Shown here in pieces: positions 1 through 11,586 of a stretch of DNA of 33,507 bases. Within the stretch, counting starts at the first letter, position 1. Each line of letters begins with the position of its first letter. The notes under the pieces were generated by a model. The model did not search any database. It saw only the letters and a list, made by a program, of their open reading frames with translations, and was not told the origin of the DNA. This stretch comes from a virus: the IMG/VR virus record IMGVR_UViG_3300043424_000455, positions 1 through 33,507 of that record; one strand, written 5' to 3'. Both the position numbers and the translations under genes were made by a program.

Positions 1-216
1 CCTTGACTTCCGGTGAAGCCAACACTACCTGTGAAGCCCACAGAGCCGGTGAATCCTACGCTACCAGCGAAGCCTGGTCCACCTTGACTTCCTGTGAATC
101 CAGCGCCGCCTTGACTTCCGGTGAAGCCAACACTACCTGTGAAGCCCACAGAGCCGGTGAATCCTACGCTACCAGCGAAGCCTGGTCCACCTTGACTTCC
201 TGTGAATCCAGCGCCG
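1..216. repeat. Exact 108-bp tandem duplication in the fibre gene
   Basis: Bases 1-108 and 109-216 are identical by eye. The unit encodes 36 residues (12 Gly-X-Y triplets) and keeps the frame. Identity at silent positions implies a recent duplication. The array may begin left of the window. Confidence 0.85.
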
Positions 217-3200
217 CCTTGACTTCCTGTGAATCCGATGCTTCCTGTAAAGCCTGAACCACCTTGACTTCCTGTGAATCCGATGCTTCCTGTAAAGCCT
301 GAACCACCTTGACTTCCTGTGAATCCGATGCTTCCTGTAAAGCCTGAACCACCTTGACTTCCTGTGAATCCGATGCTTCCTGTAAAGCCCACTGAACCTG
401 TGAAACCAGCACCACCTTGAGAGCCAACAAATCCTGTGGTACCTTGTGAACCAGTAAATCCTTGAGCACCAACTGATCCTGAAAGATTGACGGTCCAACT
501 AGTGTATGTTCCTGAACCTACTGTAGTAATTACATTTACTACTAAACTTCCTGTTCCAACATCGTAACTTGTTACAGTGCCTTCCAGGTAATTGTTTGTA
601 TCATAAACAATTTTCACAGCTTGAGTAGCACTGTATGACAAATCTGTTTCAACAGTGAACGTCTTAGAACCTGTGGAAATTGAATTGGATGTAGTACTGG
701 AAGTAAGATAACGGTCACCATCTAATCCATTAGAACCAGTGAAACCAGTATCGCCTTTACTTCCAGTGAAGCCTAGTGATCCAGTGAAACCAGTATCGCC
801 TTTACTTCCAGTGAAGCCTAGTGATCCAGTGAAACCAGTATCGCCTTTGCTTCCACTGAAGCCGATACTCCCAGTAAAGCCTGTAGTACCTTGCGACCCA
901 GTGAATCCGATTGACCCAGTGAAGCCAGTGGTTCCTTGTGACCCAGTAAAGCCTACACTTCCTGTGAAGCCTGTAGTTCCTTGACTTCCAGTGAAGCCGA
1001 TACTTCCTGTGAATCCGATACTTCCGGTGAATCCGATGCTACCAGTAAATCCAACATCACCTTTACTGCCAGTGAAGCCAATACTACCAGTGAAACCAAT
1101 GGTGCCTTGTGAACCTGTAAATCCTACTGAGCCAGAGAATCCTACTGAGCCAGAGAATCCTGTCGTTCCTTGTGAACCTGCGAAGCCGATACTCCCTGTG
1201 AAGCCAGAATCACCTTTGCTACCAATGAATCCAACACTTCCGGTAAAGCCGGTAGTTCCTTGCGACCCACTGAAGCCGATACTCCCAGTAAAGCCTGTAG
1301 TACCTTGACTACCTGTGAACCCCAGCGACCCTGTGAATCCTGTAGTTCCTTGTGACCCTGTAAATCCAGAATCGCCTTTGCTACCAGTGAATCCAACAGA
1401 ACCTGTAAAGCCTGTGGTTCCTTGTGACCCAGTGAATCCGATTGAACCTGTAAATCCAGAATCGCCTTTGCTACCAGTGAACCCGATACTTCCTGTGAAG
1501 CCTGCGGTTCCTTGTGACCCAGTGAATCCGATTGAACCAGTAAATCCAACAGAACCTGCGAAACCAGTTGTTCCTTGTGACCCAGTGAATCCGATTGAAC
1601 CAGTAAATCCAACATCGCCTTTGCTACCAGTAAATCCAGAATCGCCTTTGCTACCAGTAAAGCCTATTGAGCCTGTGAAGCCAGTAGTTCCTTGTGACCC
1701 AGTGAAGCCTACACTTCCTACGAAGCCAGTAGTTCCTTGTGACCCAGTGAAGCCGATACTTCCTGAGAAACCAGTAGTACCTTGCGAGCCTGTGAAACCA
1801 ACACTACCCGTGAAGCCAGTAGTTCCTTGCGACCCAGTGAAGCCGATGCTACCTGTGAATCCTTGATTACCTTGACTGCCTGTAAACCCAACATCACCTT
1901 GAGAGCCAGAAAATCCAATACTTCCTGTGAAGCCAACACTTCCAGTGAATCCAATATCACCTTGACTGCCTGTAAACCCAACATCACCTTGAGAGCCAGA
2001 AAATCCAATACTTCCTGTGAAGCCAACACTTCCAGTGAATCCAATATCACCTTTACTTCCAGAAAATCCAATACTTCCTGTGAAGCCTGTAGTACCTTGA
2101 CTTCCAGTGAAGCCAGTAGTTCCTTGCGAACCAGTGAACCCGATACTTCCTGTGAAACCTGCGGTTCCTTGAGAACCTGTGAAGCCAACACTTCCAGTGA
2201 ATCCAATATCACCTTTACTTCCAGTGAAACCTGTGGTTCCTTGTGAGCCTACAAAACCAATACTTCCAGTAAAGCCTGTAGTACCTTGACTTCCAGTGAA
2301 TCCTAATGAACCAGCAAAGCCTGTGGTTCCTTGCGACCCAGTGAAGCCGATGCTACCGGTGAATCCTGTATCTCCCTTACTACCAGTGAAGCCTACAGAG
2401 CCACTGAAGCCAGTGATTCCCTGTGAGCCTGTGAACCCGATACTTCCTGTGAAGCCTGTGGTTCCTTGTGACCCAGTGAAGCCGATGCTACCGGTGAATC
2501 CTACACTACCGGTGAAGCCAACACCACCTTGACTACCTGTAAACCCAGAACCTTGACTTCCAGTGAATCCTGAACCACCTTGACTACCAACAAAACCGCG
2601 ACTACCGGTATAACCTAAAGCACTACTGGCGGCATCAACCCATTGAGTACTGGTGCCGTCATTGTAATAAATTTTCAGTTGTCCAGATTCTTCGTCCCAC
2701 CATAAATCACCATCACTAGGAGTTTCTGGGGGTGTGGATGAAGTTGAAACAGATGCACCGCCACCGCCGCCACCTGAACCTGTATAACCAACAGCACCTT
2801 GACTACCCGTGAAACCACTGGTACCCGCAGAACCTTGTGAGCCTGTGAAGCCTTGAGCACCATCAGTTACAGTTGGATCCGCAAACAACACCCATTGACT
2901 ACTAGTACCATCATTATAATAGAAATAGGATTTACCAGAAGTTGAATCAAACCAAATAGTTCCTGTGTTTGGTAATACTGGAGGAGTTGTAGATGCAACA
3001 ACCGTGTATTGTGACCCTGTGTATCCAAGACTTCCTGTAAATCCAGTAACACCAAAGGATCCGGTGAAACCGACACTTCCTGTGAAGCCAATTTCACCTT
3101 TGCTACCATCAAAGCCTGTGGCACCTTGTGAACCAGTGAAGCCGATATCACCTTGACTACCTGTGAAGCCTAAAGAACCTGTGAAGCCTAAAGAACCTGT

Positions 3201-4115
3201 GAAGCCAGTACTACCCTGACTTCCCACATAACCAGTGTCACCACGGTCACCTGTTCGAGCGAACGTGATGATGATGTCCAAGTTGTTGGTGAATGATGTG
3301 GAACCAGAAAGCCAAGATATTGGAACTGCAAAATAATTACTGTATTCAGTGTGCGCGCCCGTGATAGCGAACATGGCAAAATTGTTCGTATCAGTCTTTT
3401 CTGTGATTGTGAAATGTCCTTTAATTGATGATGTAGAATCATCAATGGTTTGGAGATAATTGAAAACAGAAATTGCTGCATCATCAAACTGATTGATGTA
3501 GAGAACTGACGATGTTGAAAGGTCAGTAGAATTTAAACGTAACTTTCCAGAACCAGGATCAGAATTTGTGGTACTAGTATCAAACGTGTAATCAAACGCG
3601 GCGCCGCCGAAAGTACCTGGGTCACCTTTGCTACCAGTATAACCTAAATCGCCCTGTGACCCGACAAATCCTGTATCTCCTTGACTACCAGTGAAGCCAC
3701 GACTTCCTGAAAATCCTATACTGCCAGTGAAGCCCGTATCTCCTTGACTTCCAGTAAATCCAATAATACCAATACTTCCAGTAAATCCAATAATACCCTG
3801 ACTGCCAGAATAGCCAATATCTCCTTGACTTCCAGTATATCCAAGAATTCCCTGCGAACCAGTGAAGCCTGTGGCGCCTTGACTGCCGGTGAAGCCATTA
3901 TCACCCTTGCTTCCAGTGAAGCCGAGTGACCCAGTGAAGCCGGTGCTACCAACTAAACCTGATGAAATTTCTACAATGGATTCTACACCATCGTTTTTCT
4001 TGAAGTAAATTTTACCATCATTGGTATTGATAGCCAATTCACCCAACTGCAAGTCGGATAATTGCGGAACTTTACCTGGTACAGCAGACCGTTTTATTTT
4101 AATCAAATTCGCCAT
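1..4115 (-). CDS. Giant collagen-like tail fibre protein (3' end outside window)
   Basis: The frame is open for at least 1371 codons from ATG at 4115 to the left edge with no stop, so the gene is truncated by the window. A good Shine-Dalgarno (AGAGGAG) precedes the ATG. Residues 1 to about 52 (start MANLIKIKRSAVPGKVPQL, then LQVGELAINT) match the N-terminal domain common to phage tropism and fibre proteins (Mtd_N type). After that come Gly-X-Y blocks built from GFT-GSx triplets at about residues 54-165, 290-367, 415-442, 498-1129 and 1211 to the end. Globular modules interrupt them: a beta-rich domain (about 167-289), two related modules ending in YYNDGTS(S/T)QWV (about 370-412 and 454-495), and a GDRYLTSS module (about 1130-1209). 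I infer a long trimeric collagen-like fibre that reaches the host surface. The receptor-binding tip would lie outside the window. The gene diverges from the glycosyltransferase island. Confidence 0.88.
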   Translation of the reverse strand, partial: MANLIKIKRSAVPGKVPQLSDLQLGELAINTNDGKIYFKKNDGVESIVEISSGLVGSTGFTGSLGFTGSKGDNGFTGSQGATGFTGSQGILGYTGSQGDIGYSGSQGIIGFTGSIGIIGFTGSQGDTGFTGSIGFSGSRGFTGSQGDTGFVGSQGDLGYTGSKGDPGTFGGAAFDYTFDTSTTNSDPGSGKLRLNSTDLSTSSVLYINQFDDAAISVFNYLQTIDDSTSSIKGHFTITEKTDTNNFAMFAITGAHTEYSNYFAVPISWLSGSTSFTNNLDIIITFARTGDRGDTGYVGSQGSTGFTGSLGFTGSLGFTGSQGDIGFTGSQGATGFDGSKGEIGFTGSVGFTGSFGVTGFTGSLGYTGSQYTVVASTTPPVLPNTGTIWFDSTSGKSYFYYNDGTSSQWVLFADPTVTDGAQGFTGSQGSAGTSGFTGSQGAVGYTGSGGGGGGASVSTSSTPPETPSDGDLWWDEESGQLKIYYNDGTSTQWVDAASSALGYTGSRGFVGSQGGSGFTGSQGSGFTGSQGGVGFTGSVGFTGSIGFTGSQGTTGFTGSIGFTGSQGITGFSGSVGFTGSKGDTGFTGSIGFTGSQGTTGFAGSLGFTGSQGTTGFTGSIGFVGSQGTTGFTGSKGDIGFTGSVGFTGSQGTAGFTGSIGFTGSQGTTGFTGSQGTTGFTGSIGFSGSKGDIGFTGSVGFTGSIGFSGSQGDVGFTGSQGDIGFTGSVGFTGSIGFSGSQGDVGFTGSQGNQGFTGSIGFTGSQGTTGFTGSVGFTGSQGTTGFSGSIGFTGSQGTTGFVGSVGFTGSQGTTGFTGSIGFTGSKGDSGFTGSKGDVGFTGSIGFTGSQGTTGFAGSVGFTGSIGFTGSQGTAGFTGSIGFTGSKGDSGFTGSIGFTGSQGTTGFTGSVGFTGSKGDSGFTGSQGTTGFTGSLGFTGSQGTTGFTGSIGFSGSQGTTGFTGSVGFIGSKGDSGFTGSIGFAGSQGTTGFSGSVGFSGSVGFTGSQGTIGFTGSIGFTGSKGDVGFTGSIGFTGSIGFTGSIGFTGSQGTTGFTGSVGFTGSQGTTGFTGSIGFTGSQGTTGFTGSIGFSGSKGDTGFTGSLGFTGSKGDTGFTGSLGFTGSKGDTGFTGSNGLDGDRYLTSSTTSNSISTGSKTFTVETDLSYSATQAVKIVYDTNNYLEGTVTSYDVGTGSLVVNVITTVGSGTYTSWTVNLSGSVGAQGFTGSQGTTGFVGSQGGAGFTGSVGFTGSIGFTGSQGGSGFTGSIGFTGSQGGSGFTGSIGFTGSQGGSGFTGSIGFTGSQGGAGFTGSQGGPGFAGSVGFTGSVGFTGSVGFTGSQGGAGFTGSQGGPGFAGSVGFTGSVGFTGSVGFTGSQ
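218..397. repeat. Four-copy 45-bp tandem repeat in the fibre gene
   Basis: The string GACTTCCTGTGAATCCGATG recurs at 221, 266, 311 and 356, giving a 45-bp period (15 residues, five Gly-X-Y triplets). Copies are virtually identical until the last one diverges near 390. Confidence 0.85.
739..828. repeat. Exact 45-bp tandem duplication in the fibre gene
   Basis: 739-783 and 784-828 are identical. A third, diverged copy begins at 829. The unit is in frame and encodes Gly-X-Y triplets. Confidence 0.8.
1871..2050. repeat. Exact 90-bp tandem duplication in the fibre gene
   Basis: 1871-1960 and 1961-2050 are the same sequence, each beginning CTTGACTGCC. The unit encodes ten Gly-X-Y triplets, so the frame and collagen register are kept. 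Confidence 0.8.
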
Positions 4116-4156: not shown

Positions 4157-4185
4157 TTGACAAAATACTATATGTATAGTATATT
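4157..4185 (+). promoter_or_regulatory. Consensus sigma-70 promoter for the glycosyltransferase island
   Basis: A perfect -35 TTGACA (4157-4162) is followed by a 17-base spacer and TATATT (4180-4185). Transcription would start near 4192, about 30 bases before the ATG at 4223. An 18-bp perfect palindrome (4165-4182) lies across the spacer and -10. Confidence 0.75.
4165..4182. promoter_or_regulatory. 18-bp palindrome over the -10 region; candidate operator
   Basis: ATACTATA-TG-TATAGTAT is a perfect inverted repeat with 8-bp arms. It covers most of the spacer and half of the -10 of the plus-strand promoter. This is the classic placement for a dimeric repressor site, but the site is AT-rich and no cognate regulator is in the window. 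Confidence 0.4.
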
Positions 4186-4192
4186 ATTGTTA

Positions 4193-4200
4193 TATTTATA
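4193..4200 (-). promoter_or_regulatory. T4-late-type promoter (TATAAATA) for the fibre gene
   Basis: The minus strand reads TATAAATA, the exact T4 late -10 element, 78 bases before the fibre ATG at 4115. The predicted start is near 4186, giving a leader of about 70 bases that contains a small hairpin (arms at 4132-4136 and 4139-4143) just before the ribosome binding site. T4 late promoters need no -35 element, and none is evident here. Position and orientation support the call, but no experiment is visible. Confidence 0.6.
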
Positions 4201-4222: not shown

Positions 4223-7200
4223 ATGTCAAAGACAAAGATTGCTATAGTAGACCTTATTGGTTTAACCTATGACCCAACAACTTTAGAAAAGTATGGTCTA
4301 GGAGGATCGGAATCCGCTGTAATTTACATGGCTCGGGAACTGCAAAAGGCAGGATTCGATGTTACAGTTTTCAATAACTGTATAGATAGCAGAGCAAGAG
4401 AAGGTGTGTATGATGGTGTGACTTATGTAGATAATCAACGCCTCCATCATATGAATGATTACACATGTGATGTGTTTATCGTGTCACGCACAGTAATTCC
4501 ATTTCTGCCTGAAAAATATTGGAAAAATGTAAATTACAATCCTGGGGTTTATCAGCAATTAAAAAATAGTGCCAAAAAGAAAATTTTATGGCTGCATGAC
4601 ACATTCTGTTCAGGAGATGAATTATTAGAAGAATTGGTCATGGATGGACATATTGATGAGGTGTTCACCTTGTCTGATTTTCATACTACATATTTCGCCA
4701 ATTCTCATCACGGTAGAAGAAGAAATTTTGAAGTATTAAAGAACAAGATTTTCATGACACGTAATGGTATCAAACGCCATATTCATGAAATTGATGTTAC
4801 CAAGAAAGATAAAAACTTGTTTGTGTATAATGCTTCTATTACCAAGGGCATGTTACCCTTAGTTGAAAACATTTGGCCTCTAGTTAAACGTAGAATTCCA
4901 ACTGCCAAGTTGAAAGTGATTGGCGGGTATTATCGTTTCCGTGACGGAGCCCCTCCAGATGCACAAGAGGAAACATGGCATAAGTTAATTGCTCGTCCTG
5001 AAATGAAAGCCATGGACATTGAGTTCACAGGTGTTATTCCACAAAAACAAATTGCTGATATACTATCAGAAGCATCATTCATGATTTTTCCTGGCGCATT
5101 CCCAGAAACATTTGGAATTTCCAGTCTTGAATCTCTTGCATACAACACACCATTAATTACAACTCGATTTGGTGCATTAGAAGAAACTGCTGTAGACATG
5201 GCATGTTACAAGATTGATTATGCCATTGAACCAAACAATTTGTTCACTGATATTAACAAAGACAATCAAGTACGGAAATTTGTTGATATGGTGGTGTATG
5301 CATATAACAATCCCTATCTACATGCACAAAAGATGCAGTACTGTAACATCGTTCATGATATCTGTGAATGGGACACAGTAGCTTTACAATGGAAACAACA
5401 CATCTATAAAATTTTAGGGTTGTATCTTCCTGTTGATGAATATAAGAAAGTGTCATATATCAATCAAAAGGTTCATGAAGTGTATACTCGTAGATATAGC
5501 AATCCAGAAGAATGGCAACCTGTAAGAAGTTACCCACAACAAAACATTTCAGTTGTATCTCCCTTTTATAATGCAAAGGATTACATTGCCGATTGCATTT
5601 TGTCAGTTGCATCTCAGGATTATGAGAATTACACTCATTATTTAATTGATGATGCTTCTACAGATGGTAGTTTTGAAATTGCTAAAGAAACTATAAACAC
5701 ACTCTCTGAAAACATTAAATCAAAATTCAAGTTGATTCGAAATGGAGAGAATCAAGGAGCTGTTGCCAATCAAGTGTTAACCATCATGTCATGCAATGAC
5801 GAGGACATTGTTATGATGCTTGATGGTGATGACAAACTAGTAAATGATAATAACATATTTCAATATTATAATTCTGTGTATGATGGCACAACCGAATTCA
5901 CCTATGGATCCATGTGGTCCATGGTGGATAACATCCCGTTAATTGCACAGCCCTACCCTGAAAGGGTGAAACAGAACCGAGACTATAGAAAACATTTGTT
6001 TGCATGGAATATGCCATATACACATCTTAGAACATTCAAGAAGTTTTTGTTCAACGATATCCCAATGACAAATTTTCAAGATGAACATGGTAAGTGGTAT
6101 CGCGCAGGGGGCGACACGGCAATTTTCTATAATGCGATTGAAAAGGCAGAACCTTCGAAAGTAAAAGCTCTGCAAAAAATCGTATATAACTATAATGACA
6201 AGAACCCATTAAATGATTATAAAGTTAATGGAGTTGAACAAACTAAAACTGCAAATAAAGTACTGCACAACACTGAAACACATACAACTCATACTATGAC
6301 CTCACAAAACAAAAAGAAAATACTTTTGGCAATCCCCACAGCCAAGTATATTGAATCTGAAACATTCAAGAGCATCTATGATTTAGAAGTACCTGATGAT
6401 GTAGAATTAACCTTTCAATATTTCTATGGTTACAATATTGACCAAATTAGAAATTTGATTGCACACTGGGCAACACATTATGATTATCTGTTTTCTGTAG
6501 ACAGTGACATTGTTCTGCCTAAAGATTGTTTAGTGAAGATGTTGAATCATGATAAAGATATGGTCTCAGGTGTGTATATTCAACGTAAACCTGACCAGGA
6601 AATTTTAGAAATTTACAGAAAGAATGAACATGGAGGAGTTTCCAATGTTCCGTTCATTCACTTGCAACCGGCAGGATTACATCCAGTTGACGGGTGTGGA
6701 TTTGGTTGTGTTCTTGTGAAGTCTGAAGTTATTCGTAAGATTGGTTATCCGCAGTTTGTGTACAAGTCAGCATTGGACCACAGGAACACAATTTCCGAAG
6801 ATGTGTACTTCTGTACAAGAGCCCGCCAACTAGGATTCCAAATTTTTGCTGATTCTACAATTGTATGTAATCACATTGGTAATACCGTGTTCGTGCCGAA
6901 AGACATCATGAGTGATGAACAACAAAAAAATTACCTCCGGCATCTCTCGACATGGGACTTCAGAAAGGAAGATGTTGATTATCTGAAAACCATGAAGAAG
7001 CACGGCGTGAATCCTAAAGTAATTTATGATATTGGTGCTTGCACAGGTAATTGGACCCGTGAAGCACGAAAGATTTGGGACAATAGCAATTTTGTGTTGT
7101 TTGATGCCATGCCACAAGTTGAATTCCTGTTGAAGGAAACAGGATTTGATTATCACATTGGTGTGTTAAGCGATGTATCTCATAAAGAAGTTGAATTCTT

Positions 7201-7579
7201 TGAGAATGTGTGGCAACCAGGTGGTAACAGCTATTATCGTGAAATTGGTCATCCTGAATCAGGACGAGTATTTTCAGATGCACACAAGGTGAAGAAAACT
7301 ACTCGTTCATTGGATGATGTAGTACGATACAACAATTTCCCATTACCTGATATGATGAAGATTGATGTTCAAGGTTGTGAAATTGACGTATTGAAGGGTG
7401 CTGAATATACATTGTCCAAGTGTACGGACTTGTTGATTGAATTGCAACATACAGAATATAACCAAGGTGCGCCATTAAAGGATGAGGCTATTGAATTCTT
7501 AAAGAGTATTGGTTTCAAACAAAAGTATGCGTTACCAGCTACACCGTTTGATGGTGACTATCATTTTGTGAGGGTGTAA
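4223..7579 (+). CDS. Four-module fusion: GT-B glycosyltransferase, GT2, second GT-A, FkbM methyltransferase
   Basis: A protein of 1118 aa is predicted from ATG 4223, which has GAGGTGA five bases upstream. An in-frame GTG at 4214 is possible but would overlap that signal. Residue numbers here count from the GTG. Module 1 (about 5-410) is GT-B/GT4-like: GLGGSES near 30 and the nucleotide-sugar motif PETFGISSLE near 295. Module 2 (about 440-690) is a GT2 GT-A domain: ISVVSPFYNAKDY, then MLDGDD near 535. Module 3 (about 700-925) is another GT-A-like domain with VDSD near 762 and ISEDVYF. Module 4 (about 930-1121) is an FkbM-type SAM methyltransferase: VIYDIGACTGNW near 935 and MKIDVQGCEIDVLKGAE near 1047. 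It probably builds and caps a short glycan with O-methyl sugar. The acceptor is unknown; the adjacent fibre or a host surface glycan are candidates. No membrane segment or signal peptide is evident. The stop overlaps the next start (TAATG). Confidence 0.85.
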   Translation: MSKTKIAIVDLIGLTYDPTTLEKYGLGGSESAVIYMARELQKAGFDVTVFNNCIDSRAREGVYDGVTYVDNQRLHHMNDYTCDVFIVSRTVIPFLPEKYWKNVNYNPGVYQQLKNSAKKKILWLHDTFCSGDELLEELVMDGHIDEVFTLSDFHTTYFANSHHGRRRNFEVLKNKIFMTRNGIKRHIHEIDVTKKDKNLFVYNASITKGMLPLVENIWPLVKRRIPTAKLKVIGGYYRFRDGAPPDAQEETWHKLIARPEMKAMDIEFTGVIPQKQIADILSEASFMIFPGAFPETFGISSLESLAYNTPLITTRFGALEETAVDMACYKIDYAIEPNNLFTDINKDNQVRKFVDMVVYAYNNPYLHAQKMQYCNIVHDICEWDTVALQWKQHIYKILGLYLPVDEYKKVSYINQKVHEVYTRRYSNPEEWQPVRSYPQQNISVVSPFYNAKDYIADCILSVASQDYENYTHYLIDDASTDGSFEIAKETINTLSENIKSKFKLIRNGENQGAVANQVLTIMSCNDEDIVMMLDGDDKLVNDNNIFQYYNSVYDGTTEFTYGSMWSMVDNIPLIAQPYPERVKQNRDYRKHLFAWNMPYTHLRTFKKFLFNDIPMTNFQDEHGKWYRAGGDTAIFYNAIEKAEPSKVKALQKIVYNYNDKNPLNDYKVNGVEQTKTANKVLHNTETHTTHTMTSQNKKKILLAIPTAKYIESETFKSIYDLEVPDDVELTFQYFYGYNIDQIRNLIAHWATHYDYLFSVDSDIVLPKDCLVKMLNHDKDMVSGVYIQRKPDQEILEIYRKNEHGGVSNVPFIHLQPAGLHPVDGCGFGCVLVKSEVIRKIGYPQFVYKSALDHRNTISEDVYFCTRARQLGFQIFADSTIVCNHIGNTVFVPKDIMSDEQQKNYLRHLSTWDFRKEDVDYLKTMKKHGVNPKVIYDIGACTGNWTREARKIWDNSNFVLFDAMPQVEFLLKETGFDYHIGVLSDVSHKEVEFFENVWQPGGNSYYREIGHPESGRVFSDAHKVKKTTRSLDDVVRYNNFPLPDMMKIDVQGCEIDVLKGAEYTLSKCTDLLIELQHTEYNQGAPLKDEAIEFLKSIGFKQKYALPATPFDGDYHFVRV

Positions 7580-8307
7580 TGTCATTACCTACATATAATA
7601 AAAAATACGCACTTGAAGAATTTCAATTGCACGGTGAATATCAGATGCAAGAAAAATTGAGTACGATTCCTATGACTTCAATTTTTGATGTAGGGTGTAA
7701 TATTGGTGAATGGACAAGAATGGTTCGAAGTTTTCAACCAAAAGCATTAATTCACATGTTTGATATTTCTCCGTTCACCTTTCAAAAGATGCTTAGAAAT
7801 ATACCATTAGATAATGGCATTTTCGCTAATTCCTATGGACTTTCCAATGCAACCAAGGAAATTCCATTAAAGGTTGTCACTGATAATGATAGAGTTACAA
7901 CCACTGTGATGAATATAGCTCATGATAACAGCGTATATAAAAATGCCTTAGTTTCAACTGGTGAGTTTTATACTAAACATTATGGTATAGAACACATTGA
8001 TTTCTTGAAAATTGACACTGAAGGGCATGAATATGAAACACTACAAGGATTCATGCCTATGATTGAAAAAGGAAAAATAACCTGTATTCAATTTGAATTT
8101 GGTTATATCAATGTGTTGACAAGAAGATTTTTAATGGACTACTATCAATTACTTACTCCTCACGGCTATTTGTTAGGAAAGCTAACAAAAAATGGAGTAA
8201 AGTTTAAAGATTATCATTTAATGGATGAAGATTTTAAAGGTCCGGATTATATAGCAGTTCACATCTCCAGACCTGACATCATTGAATTAATAGGCGCCGC
8301 CGTCTAA
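7579..8307 (+). CDS. FkbM-family SAM-dependent methyltransferase
   Basis: This 242-aa protein begins inside the preceding stop (TAATG), which suggests translational coupling. The SAM-binding motif I is IFDVGCNIGEWT near residue 35, and the family signature FLKIDTEGHEYETLQGF lies near 142-158. The layout matches that of module 4 of the upstream fusion, so the island encodes two FkbM domains. FkbM enzymes usually O-methylate sugars or small hydroxylated molecules, so methylation of the glycan made by the upstream protein is the simplest role. The last 21 bases overlap the end of the convergent 222-aa gene. Confidence 0.85.
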   Translation: MSLPTYNKKYALEEFQLHGEYQMQEKLSTIPMTSIFDVGCNIGEWTRMVRSFQPKALIHMFDISPFTFQKMLRNIPLDNGIFANSYGLSNATKEIPLKVVTDNDRVTTTVMNIAHDNSVYKNALVSTGEFYTKHYGIEHIDFLKIDTEGHEYETLQGFMPMIEKGKITCIQFEFGYINVLTRRFLMDYYQLLTPHGYLLGKLTKNGVKFKDYHLMDEDFKGPDYIAVHISRPDIIELIGAAV

Positions 8308-8955
8308 ATCATCGAACACAGGAACGCCGCCAACACCGGCTTGCAATACTTTTCCTTGAGTCCCCGCTGCAGTCACCTGTAGTGGGGATGTTCCATTTCC
8401 ATATACGATACCATTAAGTGTGAATGTGCTTGCTCCGGTACCGCCATAAGATACTGCAATAGGAGAACCATTCACAATAATTGTTCCACCTACTGTCAAG
8501 GTGTTGCTGATGGAAATGCTACTTGCTAAAGAAAATGTTACAGTGTTGTTGGTAACTACCGTTGATATTTGATTGGTAGTGCCAAGAAATGATAATGTTT
8601 GCCCGTTAGTGAATACATCAGATCCTGTGTTGCCTGCGATATTAAATGTACCTGCAGGGATAGGGGCAAAAGATAACACACCATTTGCATCAGTTGTTAA
8701 AAACTGATTGGCAACAATGGTATCTGGAAATGTGTATGTGATGTCTCCTGCTAGTGCGTCAGGAGCCTTTAACAGAATACGGTCAGTTCCGTTTACAGTG
8801 GCTTCACGCAGGTAGAATTGTCCCCCTTCACTATCAGTTTCATTGATAAAAAACGCATCAAATGATGTTCTTTTAACCGATGTGTTGATAACTGCTGGTT
8901 CTACAACCGCTGTATTAATTGTCGTTGGTTGTACGACTCTTACCCGCAAAGCCAT
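8287..8955 (-). CDS. Putative tail fibre or minor virion protein (222 aa)
   Basis: The protein is rich in Gly, Thr, Asn and Val, with the beta-strand style of phage fibre proteins: LLKAPDALAGDITYTFPD in the first third, TLSFLGTTNQISTVV in the middle, and YGGTGASTFTLNGIVYGNGT near the C-terminus. Similar passages occur in the 676-aa S74 fibre of this window (GTSNQITASAS, GLSGTTYNGS), which suggests a shared fibre vocabulary. Its ATG overlaps the stop of the 110-aa gene (TAATG), so the two form a unit. Its 3' end overlaps the convergent FkbM gene by 21 bases. The exact virion location cannot be told from sequence. Confidence 0.65.
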   Translation of the reverse strand: MALRVRVVQPTTINTAVVEPAVINTSVKRTSFDAFFINETDSEGGQFYLREATVNGTDRILLKAPDALAGDITYTFPDTIVANQFLTTDANGVLSFAPIPAGTFNIAGNTGSDVFTNGQTLSFLGTTNQISTVVTNNTVTFSLASSISISNTLTVGGTIIVNGSPIAVSYGGTGASTFTLNGIVYGNGTSPLQVTAAGTQGKVLQAGVGGVPVFDDLDGGAY

Positions 8956-9287
8956 TATCGGGTAACCTCAGGAGTGACCGTGATGATGCCTTCCAGTACT
9001 CTAGTAACAATGTTTCCAGGACTGATGATTTCCACATCATAAACATAACGACCACTACGTAAAGCAGACGTTTGAGTATTAGTCAATGACATGGTAATTT
9101 CACCATTTAAAGCTGATGAAATTACCATGGTTATTGCTGTATATGTATTGGAACCGTAACTTTTTCTCAGTTGCGAACGTGCTGTGTATCCTGTTAAATC
9201 CAAAGGAGTTTCTAAACTATCAGTGATAACAACCGTTACAGAAAAATGGGAACCCTGGTCTATAACTAGATTTTTTACAGTTGCCAT
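8955..9287 (-). CDS. Small beta-sandwich virion-associated protein (110 aa)
   Basis: The pattern is IDQGSHFSVTVVITD, LDLTGYTARSQLRKSY, GEITMSLTNTQTSAL, GRYVYDVEI and EGIITVTPEVTR. This is a compact all-beta protein of a type I recognise from aquatic T4-like phages, where it sits among tail-fibre genes (resembling BppU N-terminal/Ig-like folds). AGAAGGAAAC lies before the ATG, and an exact TATAAATA late box lies 32 bases upstream. It probably heads the two-gene unit with the 222-aa protein. Its function in the particle is inferred from context only. Confidence 0.65.
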   Translation of the reverse strand: MATVKNLVIDQGSHFSVTVVITDSLETPLDLTGYTARSQLRKSYGSNTYTAITMVISSALNGEITMSLTNTQTSALRSGRYVYDVEIISPGNIVTRVLEGIITVTPEVTR

Positions 9288-9330: not shown

Positions 9331-10443
9331 TTATGACTCGTATTGTTCCTTGAAGTAATTTTCCAGCCAATTCCAATCAACTGTCTTATTTAGTGCTTCT
9401 TTATTATCACGATATTGTTCAGCATATTCATACCCATCTTTAGCACCCTTCATCACCCAATCGGAGTTTTGCCCCTCAGCAAATGCCAGCCAACGTTCCA
9501 ACCAAAGATGTGAATCAGATGTATATTGGAGAGTCAGTTTCACAACTTCACGGAAAGCTGTTCTCCAGGCTTCATAAGGAGTTGTGGCAAATGTGGCTTC
9601 TGAAACAGTTCTTGGGACTGTGATGTTTTTGCTGTACTGTGTGAAATCCAAGCCGAAGTTTTCTGGCGTGTTTAATACTAGATTGCTGTTGTAACATACA
9701 ATGCCCATATGTCCATATTGCAATCTATTACTCATGTTTTTAGCTTGGAAAATGACATGAGCATCTGAAATGGTTTCAACTGGGTAATCAAATACAGACG
9801 CATCTGTGACATAATTCTTTCCAGTGACAACAAAGAATTGCTTTGCATTATCCGATAAGTCCACACATTTATGAAACATGTTTCTACGTCCATTGATACC
9901 ATCAATACGAACAGCACGTGGACATAATTTTACTAGATGTTCCCAATTATCATCGGCATTACTTTCTCCATTACTGGCAAAAAATACCGGCACTTGATCC
10001 TTTTTGCTAGTTCTACGAACCTTCAAAGTATGTAATGCCACAATTGGATCCACTTCAACAATCATCTTGTCAGTCCATTCCCATGGGTCAGAAGAAATCT
10101 TCTTCTGCTTTTCAATGAGTTTTCTTTCTCCTGCCCAACCAGCAATGAATACTTGTTCATCATCCTTACGAACAACAAACACCACAGGACCAGAAATATG
10201 TTCCCATGTCACGCCATTCAAACACCGATATAATTTCTTCTGTGCTAATGGGGCATCAATGATGTCAACATAATCAAACACAGTGAGTTCTTTATCTCCT
10301 GCTTGTGCCCAGCCTTGTGCATCTTTCACAGTTTCAATAAAGTCTGTGAACCAACCTAAACTTCTCACCCAAGGCTTAGTTTCAATCACCCAGTACTTCT
10401 CAAACAATTCACTATGTGCTAACCATGATTCATTATTTAGCAT
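9331..10443 (-). CDS. Conserved phage protein of unknown function, glycan-cassette member
   Basis: This 370-aa protein has no signal peptide or membrane segment. The central part (KDQVPVFFASNGESNADDN near 153-171, then AVRIDGINGRRNMFHKC and the passage TISDAHVIFQAKNMSNRLQY, then GHMGIVCYNSNLVL) resembles a family I know from aquatic T4-like phages, often next to glycosyltransferases. The pattern recalls a GT-A-like fold that names a residue pair, a partner sugar nucleotide or a glycan, but no clear DxD is visible, so activity is uncertain. The C-terminal third is rich in Trp and aromatic residues (AYEAWRTAFRE-like segment, LWLERWLAF). The start has AAGGTGAAAAAGA upstream and overlaps the 233-aa gene by 11 bases, implying co-translation. 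Function is not assigned. Confidence 0.6.
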   Translation of the reverse strand: MLNNESWLAHSELFEKYWVIETKPWVRSLGWFTDFIETVKDAQGWAQAGDKELTVFDYVDIIDAPLAQKKLYRCLNGVTWEHISGPVVFVVRKDDEQVFIAGWAGERKLIEKQKKISSDPWEWTDKMIVEVDPIVALHTLKVRRTSKKDQVPVFFASNGESNADDNWEHLVKLCPRAVRIDGINGRRNMFHKCVDLSDNAKQFFVVTGKNYVTDASVFDYPVETISDAHVIFQAKNMSNRLQYGHMGIVCYNSNLVLNTPENFGLDFTQYSKNITVPRTVSEATFATTPYEAWRTAFREVVKLTLQYTSDSHLWLERWLAFAEGQNSDWVMKGAKDGYEYAEQYRDNKEALNKTVDWNWLENYFKEQYES

Positions 10444-11134
10444 TCTTTTTCACCTTTTTAACGTGACGTTTCACAATTTGTTCATCATTAACACCAATAC
10501 TTGGTCCGAATGCCCATTGACCAATATGTCGTACTTGGGTACTTAAATTCATATCAACTAAAATCTTGTGTCCTGCATCTCGCAATTTTTGTTGAAAATA
10601 GAAATCTTCTCCATGCCATTCACCATCTTTATATTCAAATGCGAAAAACGGAGGTTCAATATTTTTCAACACTTCAGTTTTCATCATCATGCAACCCATA
10701 CCAATTCCTTCAACTTCTTGCAATTCGCCATCATGTTCCAACGGCAACCAATCTTCCCAGTTACCTCGTTCTGGATAGGCAACTGTTTGCAAAGGAACTG
10801 AACGCTTCATGTAATTGGAACACACAATGTCTTTGTTATGTCCCATCAAACGCATGGCAGTTGTGCTTGGAAACATCATGTCTGAATCTAACCACAGAGC
10901 ATAATCCGCCTTTAAATTCAATGCCTGTTTTGCTAGCTTCTCGCGTTGACTTAACAGAATGGTGCTTTGGTCATAAATCACATGAATATCAATACCTGCC
11001 ATGGTTGTTGTTTTCACTAACTCAACTAAACTAGCAGTAAACAAACTGGGAACAGTATCTCGACAAGGAACCAGAACTGCTAATTTTGTAGGTTTGGCTT
11101 TCCAGATGCTCATGTCATAAATGTTCTTGCTCAT
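10433..11134 (-). CDS. GT-A fold glycosyltransferase
   Basis: The 233-aa protein begins with a Rossmann-like strand (KLAVLVPCRDTVPS, about 17-30). It carries the metal/nucleotide motif LWLDSDMMFP (D83-S84-D85), then EGIGMGCMMMKTEV (about 142-155) and HGEDFYF (E176, D177), and ends with a basic tail (VKRHVKKVKKNAK). Strand order and motif spacing match GT2-like GT-A enzymes, and it is visibly related to module 3 of the plus-strand fusion (DYLFSVDSD, DGCGFGCVLVK, ISEDVYF). It likely transfers a sugar from a nucleotide donor in the host cytoplasm. Donor and acceptor are unknown. Its ATG overlaps the upstream stop (ATGA). Confidence 0.78.
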   Translation of the reverse strand: MSKNIYDMSIWKAKPTKLAVLVPCRDTVPSLFTASLVELVKTTTMAGIDIHVIYDQSTILLSQREKLAKQALNLKADYALWLDSDMMFPSTTAMRLMGHNKDIVCSNYMKRSVPLQTVAYPERGNWEDWLPLEHDGELQEVEGIGMGCMMMKTEVLKNIEPPFFAFEYKDGEWHGEDFYFQQKLRDAGHKILVDMNLSTQVRHIGQWAFGPSIGVNDEQIVKRHVKKVKKNAK

Positions 11135-11586
11135 AAGCCAGCAACCCCTGCTGCCAGATTGGTTGATTGAGTTGTGATATCACGAATCAATGTACTAATT
11201 TCATACACGCGCTTCACAACAAATTGATAATCGGCAAGCGGTAGTTGTGTGATGGTGTTCAATGTATCAATACTGTACTTATCGAAAATCAATATTTCCA
11301 TTGCCGCCTGTCTTGCCAATTTCTCAATGAGACTAAAACGTGATGTTTGCGGTTCATTGTTCAACAGATTTAACAGATGTTCAAAATCATGTTCAGCAAG
11401 AAGTCCTTCTAAAAAGGCAACTCGTTCAGGCCATTCATTCTTTTCCTTTAGATATTTCAATTCATACAAAAGTTCGGCAAGAACCTTTTTATCATATCCA
11501 ATAGAAACCCATCGGACATACCGTTCTTCGTATTCCGATGGGTTTGTATTGATTGCATCAATTAACTTGTCAACTGTAATTTCCAT
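11131..11586 (-). CDS. Hypothetical helical protein (151 aa), first gene of the glycan cassette
   Basis: Not recognised. The protein looks mostly helical and acidic (KLIDAINTNPSEYEERYVRW, LAELLYELKYLKEKNEWPE, FEHLLNLLNN), with a C-terminal segment of small residues (TTQSTNLAAGVAGL). GAGAGGG lies before the ATG, and a sigma-70-like promoter lies about 30-55 bases upstream. It overlaps the 233-aa glycosyltransferase by four bases (ATGA), so it is part of that operon. A partner or chaperone role for the enzymes is possible but only a guess. Confidence 0.6.
   Translation of the reverse strand: MEITVDKLIDAINTNPSEYEERYVRWVSIGYDKKVLAELLYELKYLKEKNEWPERVAFLEGLLAEHDFEHLLNLLNNEPQTSRFSLIEKLARQAAMEILIFDKYSIDTLNTITQLPLADYQFVVKRVYEISTLIRDITTQSTNLAAGVAGL

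Follow-up and report, generated by a model that had tools for sequence, protein, structure and literature searches.

A fused glycosyltransferase and methyltransferase protein facing a collagen-like fibre gene in uncultured phages

Three glycosyltransferase (GT) domains and an FkbM methyltransferase are joined in a single predicted protein, P0001, encoded on the phage fragment IMGVR_UViG_3300043424_000455, which was analysed over its whole length of 33,507 bases (hereafter the window). The gene (4223–7579, plus strand; 1118 amino acids) is an open frame with the domain order GT-B / GT2 / GT-A / FkbM, as assigned by Pfam, PHROGs and AlphaFold models, and it is followed by a second FkbM gene, with which it forms the cassette described here. 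In one clade of relatives the cassette stands back to back with the gene for a threonine-rich, nearly proline-free collagen-like fibre. We propose, with about even confidence, that P0001 acts in soluble form, assembling a short glycan on one of the virion proteins, probably the neighbouring collagen-like fibre, and then methylating that glycan. All its domains belong to enzyme families already known, and together they would act much as viral glycan enzymes of a described kind do; if the proposal is right, a bacterial virus would here be decorating its particle in a new way.

Three glycosyltransferase domains and a methyltransferase in one polypeptide

The mechanically called reading frame of P0001 begins at GTG 4214. 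As this codon falls within a ribosome-binding site, GAGGTG, ATG 4223 is the better start. From there, domain 1 (residues ~1–400; 4223–5422, plus strand) has a GT4-like GT-B fold with an EX7E motif (E295/E303; PF00534/PF13692). Pfam Glycos_transf_1 matches it at residues 194–325 with 43.5 bits (cut-off 26.4), its model superposes on MshA (3c4q) in VIA-align with Z 22.9 and 3.5 Å over 327 residues, and the lipopolysaccharide (LPS) enzyme WaaG is among its fold neighbours. Domain 2 (residues ~437–690; 5531–6292, plus strand) belongs to the GT2 family (GT-A fold, DGDD motif, PF00535). It scores 81.8 bits against Glycos_transf_2 at residues 443–578 (cut-off 23.3) and aligns with TarS (5tze) at Z 19.6 and 3.3 Å over 210 residues; taken alone, this domain matches PHROG 841, which is GtrB-like.

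Domain 3 (residues ~695 to 900 or 910; 6305–6922, plus strand) has a GT-A fold with the motifs VDSD (D760/D762) and SED (E859/D860). It has no Pfam family match in the scan of P0001 and matches PHROGs 34859 and 12406 (named glycosyltransferase) as well as 1574 (no function given). Its top fold match is the A197 protein of STIV, an archaeal virus (2c0n; Z 21.0, 2.1 Å over 167 residues), to which it also has a profile match (E 4.2e-6). Next come LH3 (Z 19.0, 3.1 Å over 183 residues, covering LH3 residues 293–536), Mnn9 (17.8), COLGALT1 (16.7) and mimivirus R699 (16.6), with other GT-A enzymes at 15.5 or below. The modelled likeness to the collagen-modifying enzymes LH3 and COLGALT1 is suggestive only. 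Whole-model Foldseek matches to these two enzymes had root-mean-square deviations of 17–24 Å and were discarded.

Domain 4 (residues ~918–1118; 6974–7576, plus strand) is an FkbM methyltransferase, matched by Pfam Methyltransf_21 (PF05050) at residues 936–1099 with 58.2 bits (cut-off 22.7). Structure comparison gives a class I methyltransferase fold, and the domain pairs with a stand-alone Moumouvirus FkbM protein over nearly its full length (36% identity; TM-score 0.95 by target). Since domain 3 takes up the VIA-align list for domains 3–4, the assignment of the methyltransferase fold draws on Pfam, the class I folds and the Moumouvirus match. As a separate observation, the Moumouvirus likeness of this segment (6974–7576) hints that phages and giant viruses may have exchanged such a domain or drawn it from a shared source.

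Mean pLDDT is 77.8 for the full-length AlphaFold model and 90.7 for a model of domains 3–4. No membrane segment is found in P0001, where the highest 19-residue hydropathy is 1.0, and the Pfam scan detects no 2-oxoglutarate (2OG) oxygenase or lysyl hydroxylase domain in it. An earlier sequence-only reading had described one polypeptide with GT-B, GT2, a third GT-A-like domain and a methyltransferase; the motifs that it quoted are present, and the Pfam, PHROGs and fold results bear it out.

Catalytic residues and the second methyltransferase

That the GT modules are separate and keep their catalytic residues, as the same reading held, is supported by the domain and structure searches and by conservation across 45 dereplicated four-domain proteins, the window protein included. 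All 16 GT positions checked are invariant in 45/45: E30, R180, K208, E295 and E303 in domain 1; D477, D481, D534, D536, D537 and D631 in domain 2; and D760, D762, E859, D860 and H884 in domain 3. In the methyltransferase, D936, G938, W944, K1046, D1048, G1051 and E1053 are kept in at least 44 of the 45, and the glycine-rich S-adenosylmethionine (SAM) motif DIGACTGNW is intact in the window protein.

The second FkbM methyltransferase (7579–8307, plus strand; 242 amino acids) matches PF05050 with 43.8 bits (cut-off 22.7) and shares 19% identity with domain 4 in an alignment of seven sequences. The TAATG coupling that had been noted between the two genes is there, with the stop TAA at 7577–7579 overlapping the ATG at 7579. 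Assembly and methyl-capping of a short glycan by this cassette can fairly be inferred.

The cassette faces a collagen-like fibre gene in one clade

Divergent from the cassette, a collagen-like fibre gene (3–4115, minus strand) runs off the window; it matches Pfam Collagen with 450 bits and consists of nearly proline-free G[FY]TGSx repeats. In the relative L001 the same fibre reaches 1961 amino acids and is still open. The left neighbour of the cassette is readable in 110 distinct loci, with 58 divergent and 52 co-directional arrangements. A collagen-like gene faces the cassette in 52 of the 58 divergent loci, and a fibre-assembly gene lies at most five genes away on the other side in 48 of them. 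From 12 loci that do not belong to the collagen-adjacent set, 19 near neighbours were checked; 13 have matches among tail, head or virion structural families, and the rest match families of unknown function or nothing.

The association also appears when the search is reversed. A search with a DNA motif encoding G[FY]TGSQG yielded, among the matches listed, 43 records of at least 25 kb, of which 41 have a Pfam Collagen match and 25 carry the cassette. By comparison, the cassette is present in none of 16 control-pattern records, two of which are collagen-positive (Fisher p 2e-5), a comparison weakened by the small number of controls, by their being unmatched for phage type and record length, and by several of the 43 records looking near-duplicate. 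It is likewise present in none of four gp6 relatives, and collagen-positive records number 3/20 over controls and gp6 relatives together. Starting from the cassette, a collagen match is found in 23 of 26 long records (22 over the cut-off), including most of those in which the cassette does not adjoin collagen; the other three are fragments of 46–72 kb.

The composition of these fibres was counted over 6051 triplets from 52 divergent loci, not dereplicated and with some fibres cut by contig ends. Threonine occupies 37% of Y positions and proline 0.6%, while X positions hold 39% serine, 36% phenylalanine or tyrosine and 0.8% proline. Table 4 of PMC3368898 gives, for viral collagens, proline at 22% of X and 9% of Y with threonine at 9% of Y, and for Gram-positive collagens threonine at 48% of Y. 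Composition as proof of the acceptor was rejected, given that collagen fibres away from the cassette are much alike and that Gram-positive collagens, too, are threonine-rich at Y. Ten annotated phage regions chosen by fibre head were tried as a composition control and set aside as too few, with open reading frames of at least 15 triplets in S-CBS2 and DSL-LC02 only; one of the two from S-CBS2 is glycine-rich rather than collagen.

Between fibre and cassette lie two promoter words. A sequence scan finds the sigma70-like word TTGACA-17-TATATT (4157–4185, plus strand) reading toward the cassette, one of three sites that score 11/12 within the 14 kb scanned. Such a word with a 17-base spacer reaches at least 11/12 in 14 of 29 dereplicated divergent loci, where mononucleotide shuffles give an expectation of 0.08. 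Toward the fibre reads TATTTATA (4193–4200, minus strand), equivalent to TATAAATA, a word like the late promoters of T4. This word is present in 39 of 44 rows (not dereplicated, one row being the window), often as TATTTATAAATA. In many loci among L012–L049, the palindrome TATTTATAAATA between fibre and cassette could serve as a two-way late promoter.

Distribution of the architecture

Relatives were collected from IMG/VR as 50 loci from one search together with 80 examined of at least 550 from a second scan, whose relatives may include proteins having one GT domain in common only; 126 loci were kept after removal of three contigs fetched twice. All four domains lie in one frame in 75 of these 126 (66 uncut and without extra domains), and three fused GTs without a methyltransferase in the same frame occur in 11. 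A further 39 are either split or cut behind the GT2 domain; one has no call. In the split forms, the third GT is joined to an FkbM domain, a Methyltransf_24 domain or a GT25-like domain. The layout of the window, four domains plus a second FkbM, is found in 2/126: L001, with a protein identical to that of the window, and L002 (91%).

Among 74 annotated phage records with a match, none covers 80% of P0001. One scan of a genome collection with two peptide patterns, which divergent relatives can escape, returned 74 stretches with one weak local GT2 match and no true relative. Two relatives in UniProt are uncultured Caudovirales proteins. The sequence-only reading had not recognised the architecture as any described system. 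This is only partly borne out. Neither the fusion, nor its spread among phages, nor its tie to proline-poor collagen fibres was found described in a literature search covering few subscription journals. Yet the architecture recurs in many uncultured phage contigs, has relatives in UniProt and has a precedent in A064R and A061L of the algal virus PBCV-1, discussed below. The same literature search found no description of glycosylation of a phage collagen.

Proposed mechanism and alternatives

In the scheme that we infer for enzyme activity, step order, sugars, acceptor residue, methylation and timing, P0001 would work in the cytoplasm as a soluble enzyme for glycan assembly, with consecutive steps joined in one chain. 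The first sugar may be placed on a virion protein by domain 3 or by a neighbouring GT, and the other GT domains would then lengthen the glycan. The FkbM domain and the second FkbM enzyme would methylate hydroxyls of the outer sugars. The likeliest acceptor is the divergent collagen-like fibre, whose G[FY]TGSx repeats are rich in threonine and serine and nearly free of proline. Expression from the sigma70-type promoter could mean that the enzyme is already present when the fibre, a late product, is synthesised.

Several observations weigh against this scheme. The left neighbour is collagen-like in only 3 of the 52 co-directional loci, and 6 of the 58 divergent loci also lack such a gene; with 52 of 110 loci co-directional, collagen adjacency thus marks one clade. 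The sigma70 word reaches 11/12 in only 2 of 39 co-directional loci. The cassette is absent from 16 of the 41 collagen-positive listed records, and G083, a near relative by gp6 (62% identity), has collagen and no cassette. GT2 content is 8/18 in cassette-free collagen-motif records and 4/16 in controls, and the general GT2 enrichment near collagen for which these counts were considered is unconvincing. Fibres lying away from the cassette have just as much threonine and, mostly, as little proline, and the neighbouring fibre thus does not stand out by its composition. Moreover, recombinant collagen from an E. coli phage is stable to 42 °C without glycosylation according to PMC3368898, so that a phage collagen need not be glycosylated. 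On the enzyme side, the matched LH3 residues 293–536 are not known to be the sugar-transferring part of that protein, and other GT-A enzymes already score 14–15. Finally, at position 942, where the window protein has the second glycine of its SAM motif (G942), only 2/45 proteins, that of the window included, hold glycine; this residue is replaced in 43/45, by leucine in 39/45. As an observation on the family, residue 942 (7046–7048 in the window) is mostly leucine though much of the domain is strongly conserved, so that SAM binding may be altered or even absent in many relatives.

The main rival, which we consider unlikely, is that the cassette remodels a host surface glycan (O-antigen or capsule) during infection, blocking superinfection or aiding release. 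WaaG, a fold neighbour of domain 1, is an LPS enzyme and, like P0001, soluble; the promoter word of the cassette is compatible with early expression; and GTs in the host recognition cluster of pelagimyophages are read as O-chain modifiers in the account of PMC7029224. Against these points, a conserved place beside the fibre and an association with collagen are not what host-surface remodelling predicts. The typical gtr-type cluster for O-antigen conversion uses a membrane-bound GtrB and a flippase, GtrA. Here P0001 has no transmembrane segment, and no flippase or membrane GtrB-type gene was recognised among the window genes scanned. Instead of the fibre, another virion protein such as the capsid, the baseplate or other fibres could be glycosylated, with the collagen neighbour incidental. 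Work by Freeman in 2023 is said to have reported glycosylation of mycobacteriophage virions, which would be a precedent, and the fold neighbours include the GT from mycobacteriophage Che8. The co-directional loci, almost all without adjoining collagen, lie near structural, baseplate and fibre proteins. The reverse-search association and the collagen match in most long cassette records argue the other way, and we regard an incidental neighbour as distinctly unlikely.

T-even phages glycosylate modified bases of their DNA with GTs of their own, and by analogy the cassette could add sugars to modified bases in the genome of this phage. PMC10611076 offers a DNA-modification reading for different GTs, found in DSL-LC02 and DSL-LC03. 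Three GTs and two FkbM enzymes among fibre genes speak against such a role, as does the lack of any recognised base-modification gene among the window genes scanned, the window being part of a genome; DNA hypermodification is very improbable here.

How collagen is kept stable without hydroxyproline in bacteria and viruses is an old question. For the fibres of E. coli prophages, PMC3368898 suggests, among other causes, high proline at X; it also names glycosylation of threonine as a further mechanism that is known. A broader and more tentative idea, which we think likelier to fail than to hold, is that many aquatic phages carry proline-free collagen fibres with short methylated O-glycans placed on threonine or serine by a dedicated fused enzyme. 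The sugars would replace proline and hydroxyproline as triple-helix stabiliser, and unrelated sugar, radical SAM and oxygenase modules would fill the fibre-side place in different phages. Because nearly proline-free, threonine-rich fibres adjoin a glycan-building enzyme here, the stabilisation idea is directly testable. If glycosylation of the fibre is confirmed, bacterial viruses would join giant viruses in sugaring their own collagen, and the fibre-region GTs of aquatic phages, read as modifiers of the host O-chain in PMC7029224, would gain another reading.

Relation to known systems

Among described systems, A064R and A061L of PBCV-1 resemble the cassette in pairing a multi-GT protein that ends in a C-terminal methyltransferase with a separate second methyltransferase, and the GT genes are early; as described in PMC9614988, A064R works on the capsid glycan and A061L adds a second methyl group. 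In contrast to the window protein, A064R has two GTs and 638 amino acids, and the glycan that it serves is N-linked to the capsid of a virus of algae. The A064R chain is absent among the 15 PDB sequence matches of P0001 at E 0.1, a comparison outside which full A064R lies. PBCV-1 A111/114R shares with P0001 the presence of three GT modules in one viral polypeptide (PMC7826918), but it has 860 amino acids, three GT domains and no methyltransferase.

Mimivirus L230, as presented in PMC9614988, parallels our proposal in being a viral enzyme that adds sugar to collagen-like proteins of the same virus, which are low in proline; hydroxylysine, but not glucosylation, is reported there in mimivirus particles. 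Unlike the window protein, which lacks a hydroxylase, L230 joins one GT to a lysyl hydroxylase. The spore collagen BclA is similar to the proposed product in that repeat threonines are O-glycosylated with a short oligosaccharide whose terminal sugar is methylated (PMC6222408), although it is a bacterial spore protein with proline-threonine repeats. The pelagimyophage host recognition cluster is alike in belonging to T4-like phages with GTs among fibre genes, and with radical SAM cassettes in one phage pair; the account in PMC7029224 gives it an O-chain reading and, as far as that account goes, neither a four-domain fusion nor a link to collagen.

Other modification genes beside collagen-like fibres

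Two further phages have other modification genes next to a collagen-like fibre, in keeping with the proposal. In DSL-LC02, a metagenome-assembled phage according to PMC10611076, a collagen-like gene has opposite it a gene for an FkbM/radical SAM fusion, a DUF6445 gene and one annotated as a beta-mannosyltransferase, which has no Pfam match. In G083, a DUF6445 gene and a 585-residue protein with two GT2 stretches lie downstream of the collagen-like gene. DUF6445 genes stand beside or near collagen-like fibres in L136 (2163–2756) and L301 (1750–2694), in two cassettes of different make-up; by eye, these genes look oxygenase-like. Among 18 records scanned (17 with the cassette and G083), six have P4H-like oxygenases (PF13640), four of them over the cut-off, and a PF13640 gene adjoins the cassette or lies within about 1 kb of it in three relatives. 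A hydroxylase in the window's own system was considered and dropped, as PF13640 has no match in the near-identical longer contig G025, itself a fragment. In two split-type loci (L016, 11988–20286; L015, 4766–13741), minus-strand gene runs stand beside the fibre assembly gene; they encode radical SAM enzymes in both loci and 2OG-Fe(II) oxygenases in L016.

Other genes of the window

The other genes recognised in the window are mostly T4-like baseplate and tail genes, and the closest match of gp6 in the phage collection is that of Pelagibacter phage HTVC008M (38%). The placement of the cassette among phage tail genes, also part of the sequence-only reading, is supported, with the qualification that the cassette itself runs opposite to the tail operon and has its own promoter word. 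Converging on it is the gene for a 222-residue tail or baseplate protein (8287–8955, minus strand; PHROG 18186, 9.7e-8; no Pfam match). Next to this, and conserved on the right of the cassette, is a 110-residue protein of L-shaped tail-fibre assembly type (8955–9287, minus strand; PHROGs 3304, L-shaped tail fiber protein assembly, and 1084, unknown).

Further into the tail operon lies a stand-alone GT-A protein, P0003 (10433–11134, minus strand; PHROG 1574), a paralogue of domain 3 with 31% identity to P0001 residues 753–901 and a Pfam Anp1 match just below the cut-off. It is the middle member of a trio (9331–11586, minus strand) with P0002 (370 amino acids; no Pfam or PHROG family) and P0004 (151 amino acids), and this trio recurs in L107.

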